This document shows, one piece after another, positions 39,261 through 39,820 of a stretch of DNA of 64,000 bases. Below the pieces are notes generated by a model. That model searched no databases. It was not told the origin of the DNA and saw only the letters and a program-made list of their open reading frames with translations. The DNA comes from Thermoleptolyngbya sichuanensis A183 (lineage in GTDB: Bacteria; Cyanobacteriota; Cyanobacteriia; Elainellales; Elainellaceae): NCBI RefSeq assembly GCF_013177315.1, contig NZ_CP053661.1, positions 1,302,001 to 1,366,000 on the forward strand. The letters are read 5' to 3'. Positions within the stretch are counted from its first letter, which is position 1. The number at the start of each line of letters is the position of its first letter. The position numbers and the translations under genes were made by a program.

Positions 39261-39502
39261 ACAGTGCGGCCTGAGTTTTAGCAAGGGGCGATCGCCCATC
39301 GGACAAAAGCTCGCCTAAGGTTCGGCATATTCTCACGGTTGCTTCAGTTTCCTCACAAAAGGGTTCTGGGGCACTCAGTGCTGTTTCAGGTTCCCCTCAG
39401 CCAGAGCCGCCAAGATGTGAGTTATCTCGGAAAGGACTCCCAAGCCTTGCCAATAGCAGGCCGGAACCTTCTACGGATTGACTAACATCAAGGAGGTTTG
39501 CG

Positions 39503-39643
39503 ATGAAACGAATTGTTCTCGTGGCGCTGTTTGCGCTGGTGCTGTTTACAGCCGTTGCTCCAGTGGCGCTTGCTCGAAGAGGAACTAGTACCTGTCCTCT
39601 GGACGGAACCCGCTGCGTTGGATCGGGGGGCGGCGGCGATTAG
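39503..39643 (+). CDS. small secreted Cys-containing peptide (46 aa)
   Basis: This short gene is well supported by local signals: AGGAGG lies 7 bp before ATG 39503. The product begins MKRIVLVALFALVLFTAVAP, a textbook signal peptide with cleavage after ALA near residue 25. The mature part of about 21 residues is RRGTSTCPLDGTRCVG followed by SGGGGD, with two Cys six residues apart and a Gly-rich end. I recognise no family. A 13-bp repeat array and a strong hairpin follow. Neighbours are ssb upstream and a minus-strand amine oxidase gene; neither predicts a role. The two Cys may form a disulfide or bind a metal or cofactor. Confidence 0.65.
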   Translation: MKRIVLVALFALVLFTAVAPVALARRGTSTCPLDGTRCVGSGGGGD

Positions 39644-39665
39644 GATTGGGCGATCGCACTATGAA

Positions 39666-39743
39666 ATCGCCCTGTAAGATTGCCCAGTCAAATCGCGCTG
39701 TGAAATCGCGCTGTGAGATTACACTGCGAAATCGCCCTGTGAT
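39666..39743. repeat. 13-bp tandem array, 6 copies
   Basis: Six units of 13 bp (ATCGCCCTGTAAG, ATTGCCCAGTCAA, ATCGCGCTGTGAA, ATCGCGCTGTGAG, ATTACACTGCGAA, ATCGCCCTGTGAT) begin 23 bp after the stop of the small secreted peptide. Confidence 0.88.
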
Positions 39744-39757
39744 GTAGACGATAAAAG

Positions 39758-39789
39758 ACCCTGGCAGAAGATGGGAATCTTGCCAGGGT
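39758..39789 (-). terminator. hairpin between the small peptide gene and the amine oxidase gene
   Basis: ACCCTGGCA and TGCCAGGGT, extended by AGAT/ATCT, make a long stem. In the minus direction it is followed by CTTTTAT, so it most likely ends the amine oxidase transcript; it may act in both directions. Confidence 0.65.
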
Positions 39790-39820
39790 TTCTGATGAAG
39801 CTACCAGGTCTTTTCAACTT

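Follow-up and report, generated by a model that had tools for sequence, protein, structure and literature searches.

A two-cysteine, probably exported peptide family of one cyanobacterial order, and the resemblance of its leader to those of other small proteins

Does a reading frame of only 46 codons, lying downstream of ssb in a cyanobacterial genome, encode a real product, and if so, what might this product do? The frame occupies positions 39503–39643 of the forward strand, stop codon included, in the 64-kb stretch of DNA analysed here (hereafter the window; genome label G000), and translates as MKRIVLVALFALVLFTAVAPVALARRGTSTCPLDGTRCVGSGGGGD followed by the stop. A Shine-Dalgarno site, AAGGAGGT (39490–39497, forward strand), precedes it, in which AGGAGG (39491–39496) is separated from the ATG by six bases; the site is also present in the orthologue found in genome G001. 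The frame lies exactly where a sequence-only reading of this DNA, which had also pointed out the AGGAGG, had placed it. The same reading had described the gene as too short for most gene callers, which is doubtful given that the default minimum gene length in Prodigal is 90 nt.

A 46-codon gene under purifying selection

Genome G001, the nearest one compared and the only other member of the window's genus among those searched, possesses a syntenic orthologue (locus L057) with 89% identity. The two frames differ at 29 of 141 bases, distributed as 4, 2 and 23 over codon positions 1, 2 and 3. Counting the stop codon, 28 codons are changed, 23 synonymously and 5 non-synonymously, and with the stop left out the NG86 estimates are dN 0.058 and dS 1.08, a ratio of about 0.05. 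When an equal number of changes was placed at random, none of 20,000 simulations gave five or fewer residue changes (mean 17.6). These values bear out the earlier argument for a real gene, and show that it is under purifying selection.

The rival reading, a chance ORF devoid of function, has next to no prospect of being correct. In its favor are the shortness of the frame and the fact that no promoter-like site was found in the intergenic stretch separating the gene from ssb (39261–39502, forward strand), which aligns to that of G001 over 219 columns, 158 of them identical, with 80 gap positions. However, this reading is already contradicted by the substitution analysis and simulations above, and the motif described below has been kept in two more genomes, whose loci are unrelated. 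NtcA-type (GTA-N8-TAC) and TCCGGA sites were not found upstream. Purine-rich sites resembling ribosome-binding sites, as judged by eye, are found upstream of the family copies.

The changes are unevenly spread between the two parts of the product. Relative to G001, the leader carries five residue changes, and the predicted mature 22 residues none, despite 13 base changes. Genome G016 possesses a tandem pair of copies, for which dN and dS are 0.12 and 0.49 overall, and 0.07 and 0.47 in the mature part, with seven residue changes in the leader and three in the mature part. In both comparisons the leader is thus more variable than the mature part, which points to a function residing in the mature peptide.

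Leader, mature motif and distribution of the peptide

Residues 1–24 (39503–39574, forward strand) have the form of a Sec-type signal peptide, beginning with an MKR n-region, continuing in a highly hydrophobic core and ending in PVALA, as judged by eye from sequence features alone; the cut is likely after A-L-A, and A-x-A is found at residues 22–24 in all five family copies. Cleavage after residue 24 would yield the 22-residue mature peptide RRGTSTCPLDGTRCVGSGGGGD (39575–39640, forward strand). The signal peptide proposed in the sequence-only reading therefore has the expected form, but its mature length of 21 residues becomes 22. Within the predicted mature part, the segment CPLDGTRC between C31 and C38 (39593–39616, forward strand) is the proposed disulfide loop, and its two cysteines, already pointed out in that reading, are invariant together with the glycine in all five aligned rows, in each case downstream of the leader. 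The alignment defines the mature motif TxTCPx[DNE]GxxCVGSGG, with T28, T30, C31, P32, G35 and C38–G43 identical in the five genes.

No family in Pfam or NCBIfam matches the peptide above cut-off, in agreement with the earlier remark that nothing known resembles the mature sequence, and no match for the mature peptide was obtained among solved structures. A match to phrog_36135 (E 0.012) spans residues 1–40 and is probably driven by the leader. A limited literature search found neither a CPxxGxxCVGSGG peptide nor its leader class under any name. The two-Cys peptide therefore probably represents a small, exported family absent from the libraries searched. It does not qualify as a lipoprotein: it scores 12.7 bits with LPAM_1, whose cut-off is 20, and the first cysteine is residue 31, which does not fit a lipobox. 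A thioredoxin-like redox peptide was also rejected, as C-x-x-C is absent and the spacing is C-x6-C.

The AlphaFold model is of low confidence (mean pLDDT 62, pTM 0.28) and does not establish a fold; it places a helix at residues 2–26, with confidence in the leader above that of the rest, and two-residue strands at 33–34 and 37–38, the latter with low confidence. This helix, and the hydrophobicity of the leader core (best 11-residue Kyte-Doolittle mean 3.5), would suit a mini-protein anchored in the membrane by residues 1–24, which would span it as a helix and display the Cys loop on the outer side; such a protein might modulate an envelope complex or a photosynthetic one. The thylakoid lumen would be a possible compartment, as one report ties more hydrophobic leaders to it (PMC12341915). 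I regard this arrangement as rather improbable, since the A-x-A is maintained in five copies and the leader tolerates more changes than the mature part.

I then considered how widely the gene is distributed. A protein search of 60 relatives returned matches at E 1.3e-6 or better in G000, G001, G016 and G028, and the other G016 copy reached 2.7e-6; the remaining matches listed, up to E 10, mostly appear fortuitous. A profile of the mature part alone recovered five genes in 4 of 36 genomes at E ≤ 0.005, the 36 being the set of the family search (a search at the level of the order gave an identical set), several of them incomplete. All five genes follow the same plan, a Sec-type signal peptide and then the mature motif: one G016 copy reads MKRLILAALSVLAISGAIAPAAFA-IGGNIDTETCPRNGNFCVGSGGAAGR, with the second 330 bp away, and the G028 copy MQRLIVSIVLVLVWSAIAMPSASA-ARLETSTCPTEGRQCVGSGGQ. 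Three of the four carriers possess a single copy. The homologues that the sequence-only reading had called for, bearing such a leader and the same two cysteines, are thus present in four genomes of the order; the synteny it had also called for holds inside the genus but not beyond it. A fifth genome, G015, encodes a divergent sixth relative, AAGTRTCNGESLRFCTGNGR, behind a similar leader, with seven residues between the cysteines rather than six, and no proline. Its score in the class profile search is so by construction, G015 being a row of the profile. The mature-only profile found no copy in G020, which belongs to the same genus as the carrier G028.

Wider searches covered samples of 388 genomes of the class and 386 of the phylum, with the best 18 or 22 candidates scored per genome. 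Among the candidates scored in the class sample, no further match was better than E 0.001; four genomes gave matches between 0.0017 and 0.0078, the new weak ones lying in G153 and G212. The phylum sample gave one match below 0.001 outside the window genome among its scored candidates, in G054 (1.1e-4). The four G054 matches were rejected: none of these frames has a signal peptide, and three, with similar flanks, lie close to contig ends, so that they probably represent a repeat. Nine loci of the phylum sample (L062–L070, of 15 other non-window loci) were also set aside, none having a signal peptide. A scan of 84,980 species with one degenerate pattern, which may leave out the window's own records, returned nine stretches and three confirmed loci, in G001, G016 and G028. 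No relative was found in searches of plasmids, phages and viral contigs, one of which gave 14 stretches fitting a pattern, none of them confirmed; a mobile or viral origin was rejected on this basis. Within the searches made, the family is restricted to one cyanobacterial order. Since synteny is lost beyond the genus, and G020 lacks the gene, it must often be gained or lost, or else move between loci.

Genomic surroundings and possible function

The neighboring genes, ssb and an amine oxidase gene, had been said to predict no role, and they indeed give no clue. The ssb gene (Pfam SSB; NCBIfam equivalog PRK07459.1) ends 242 bp upstream, and the peptide gene faces, in convergent orientation, a gene for a flavin amine oxidoreductase (Pfam PF01593). 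Between the two convergent genes lies a hairpin (39756–39791, no strand assigned; −21.6 kcal/mol, z −4.26), a possible shared terminator, which the pattern scan did not call. Directly 3′ of the peptide gene, positions 39653–39742 consist of a 13-bp unit, ATCGCCCTGTGAA, repeated in tandem about 6.9 times. This unit was not seen in the 76 bases that follow the G001 orthologue before the contig end of L057, and these bases do not align to the window. The G001 ssb gene (L057 4292–4724) appears frameshifted near its 3′ end, with one frame ending in LLGF and the tail continuing in another, which may be an assembly error.

In G001, the peptide gene follows mreB/mreC-like genes (identified by eye) and ssb; mreB-like genes and ssb are also its neighbors in G000. 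The G016 pair sits between ilvC-like and GTPase-like genes, and the G028 copy has a histidine-kinase-like ORF and a gene for a small membrane protein nearby, as read by eye from the translations. No fixed partner gene was recognised across loci, with the ORFs of the other loci read by eye and Pfam applied to the window neighbors only. Varying neighbors and the lack of a fixed partner argue for a stand-alone product.

From these features, I tentatively infer an exported peptide of 21–26 residues with a Cys-x6-Cys loop, acting as a ligand or signal outside the cytoplasm, a reading to which I give somewhat less than an even chance. The precursor would be translocated by Sec through either the plasma or the thylakoid membrane, and signal peptidase I would cleave after A-x-A, releasing the 21–26-residue peptide. 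Its two cysteines could pair around a Pro-x-Asp/Asn/Glu-Gly turn, closing a disulfide ring (C-P-x-x-G-x-x-C) followed by the fixed V-G-S-G-G and a variable, flexible Gly-rich tail. The peptide most likely works alone, because no linked enzyme, transporter or immunity gene was recognised, and it may thus be a binding ligand in itself, either a secreted signal between cells of a filament or the ligand of an envelope protein. All four carriers possess a gene for a VKOR-type disulfide oxidase, indicating a capacity for disulfides only; of 14 control genomes, 3 were matched by the same family search, Synechococcus elongatus being one of them. Among the roles suggested in the sequence-only reading (redox peptide, metal ligand or signal), redox is not supported, the spacing being C-x6-C, and a signal is possible and belongs to the favored class.

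Several observations weigh against a ligand or signal. Its sporadic distribution (4 of 36 genomes, and absence from G020) would be odd for core signaling, an objection tempered by the incompleteness of several of these genomes; the G015 copy lacks the proline and has the longer spacing; the AlphaFold model is of low confidence; and the leader, if uncleaved, could be a membrane anchor. The patchy distribution could also suit a bacteriocin- or toxin-like peptide directed against rival microbes, with Sec as its export route and the disulfide lending stability, as could the small size, the two cysteines and the tandem copies in G016. The G016 copy also matches Pfam Defensin_big, but at 13.8 bits (E 0.064) the score falls well short of the cut-off of 25. 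I nevertheless consider such an activity improbable, as the loci, with their ORFs read by eye and Pfam applied to the window neighbors, share no recognised immunity gene, dedicated exporter or modification enzyme, and the three mature forms for which net charge was calculated lie between 0 and +1 only.

The ligand or signal reading invites comparison with PatX, which is described as a Sec-exported precursor of the RG(S/T)GR inhibitor of HetR (PMC7761841, PMC12756182, PMC11298460), requiring export for its action (PMC12756182). Like PatX, the window peptide is short and cyanobacterial, with a leader of Sec type by its sequence features and a GSG-containing C-terminal part; unlike it, it lacks RG[ST]GR, and has CVGSGG instead. 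The patX gene is located near hetR, as noted for Leptolyngbya BL0902 in the same literature (PMC7761841, PMC12756182, PMC11298460), whereas in G000 hetR is at 5368165 and the peptide gene at 1341503. The hetR family PF03574 matches all six genomes considered (G000, G001, G015, G016, G020 and G028), and in each of these a separate small (H/Y)RGSGR protein is encoded near a hetR copy, with FHRGSGR in G000; G020 has two hetR matches, only one of which has an RGSGR-type protein nearby. CPxxGxxC is absent from these six putative PatX proteins. An identity with PatX, attractive for the GSG and the leader, was rejected on account of these separate proteins. As a side observation, the putative PatX proteins at L099 302–532 (forward strand), and at L101 489–734 and L104 666–923 (both reverse complement), have Cys residues after RGSGR, while those of G015, G020 and G028 end in RGSGR.

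EbfG1-4 of Synechococcus elongatus resemble the window peptide in being very small proteins of cyanobacteria that have no known domain and are secreted, as is predicted for the window peptide. Their leaders are reported to be cut after GG by the C39 transporter PteB (PMC4997328); in contrast, the Gly run of the window peptide is C-terminal and its leader has the Sec/signal-peptidase-I form. A double-glycine leader was rejected, as Gly-Gly is found only at residues 42–45 of 46, and inspection by eye of the large ORFs at 36.5–42.5 kb in the window revealed no C39 peptidase-transporter.

Leader resemblance to other small proteins

In the class sample, a profile of the peptide family matched at least 76 of 388 genomes at E ≤ 0.01, mostly in other proteins and through positions ∼1–25; the 16 such non-family proteins examined have unrelated mature parts. 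A similar 24-residue leader, approximately MKRxILAxLSVLxLSxxAxPxxxA, is carried by DRFEQERQETLNAL repeat proteins and ‘TPFxLVxLAxQG’ proteins (labels of this analysis, no family name having been found), whose mature parts are unrelated to the two-Cys peptide. Three representatives of the other leader groups compared with Pfam, and four with NCBIfam, gave nothing above cut-off.

A leader profile (A3) built from five leaders of the two-Cys family and five of other proteins gave 43 matches in 22 of the 36 family genomes, all in proteins of 40–187 residues. By eye, these comprise 6 members of the two-Cys family (including G015), 24 ‘DRFEQER..LNAL’-type repeats, 8 ‘TPFxLVxLAxQG’ proteins, 2 SGDSNPSDLRNPTVDTSEV repeats and 3 others; a pattern recovered 22 of the 24 repeats, missing two in G002. 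Only 1 of the 37 non-family proteins matched by A3 contains a cysteine. That leaders of like class are carried by short repetitive proteins unlike enzymes, with 24 of the 43 matches being DRFEQERQETLNAL-type repeat proteins (22 by pattern, the two G002 ones by eye), would fit a secreted structural or surface peptide that, as perhaps the other proteins with this kind of leader do, attaches to the cell wall, the sheath or pili without taking part in signaling. I hold this to be unlikely, though still a serious candidate, since the strict, short and unique motif resembles specific binding more than bulk structure, and three of the four carriers have one copy only.

A second profile (A4) consisted of 19 other leaders, the two-Cys family being excluded, although its rows were found through likeness to that family. 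Read with this selection in mind, it matched the G016 copies at 4.9e-10 and 2.2e-9, that of G015 at 2.2e-6 and that of G001 at 8.2e-6, each ranking first in its own genome. In G000 the window copy likewise came first, though with an E value of only 0.40, and no match to the G028 copy appeared up to E 10. In the class sample, neither G000 nor G028 was among the genomes, at least 64 of 388, that matched A4 at E ≤ 0.001. The matches listed number 125; they include the sources of A4's own rows, have no comparison set of ordinary Sec leaders beside them, and lie in open frames of median length 142 residues (stop to stop), 120 of them ≤ 250.

The leader-bearing DRFEQERQETLNALN repeat proteins (L036, L041, L047, L112 and others), which account for the 24 of 43 A3 matches (22 by pattern), are made of ∼17-residue units, and the one scanned had no Pfam or NCBIfam match above cut-off. 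Five loci of genus g105 (L034, L037, L038, L039 and L043) encode NIQEARLEALDARTK..VHKLRLEHLNNQTKA repeat proteins with the shared leader. G182, G188 and G349 each have 9–10 A4 leader matches among the matches listed, perhaps an expanded family.

More surprising than the peptide itself is the shared leader, which still awaits proof. It may be a conserved cyanobacterial export cassette placed on unrelated small products, the looped peptide included, an idea that I consider speculative and on balance unlikely. As in venom precursors, a fixed leader would be joined to fast-changing mature parts, either by gene shuffling or through a shared destination or processing route, and among the payloads of this leader class the window peptide would count as a tiny one, closed into a loop by a disulfide.

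Small exported peptides seem, in my judgement, under-catalogued in cyanobacteria, PatS, PatX and EbfG being examples. What is new here is a conserved peptide motif that is absent from all libraries searched, and of a size amenable to synthesis. If the shared leader proves true, it would provide a simple sequence handle with which to list small exported proteins across many cyanobacteria.
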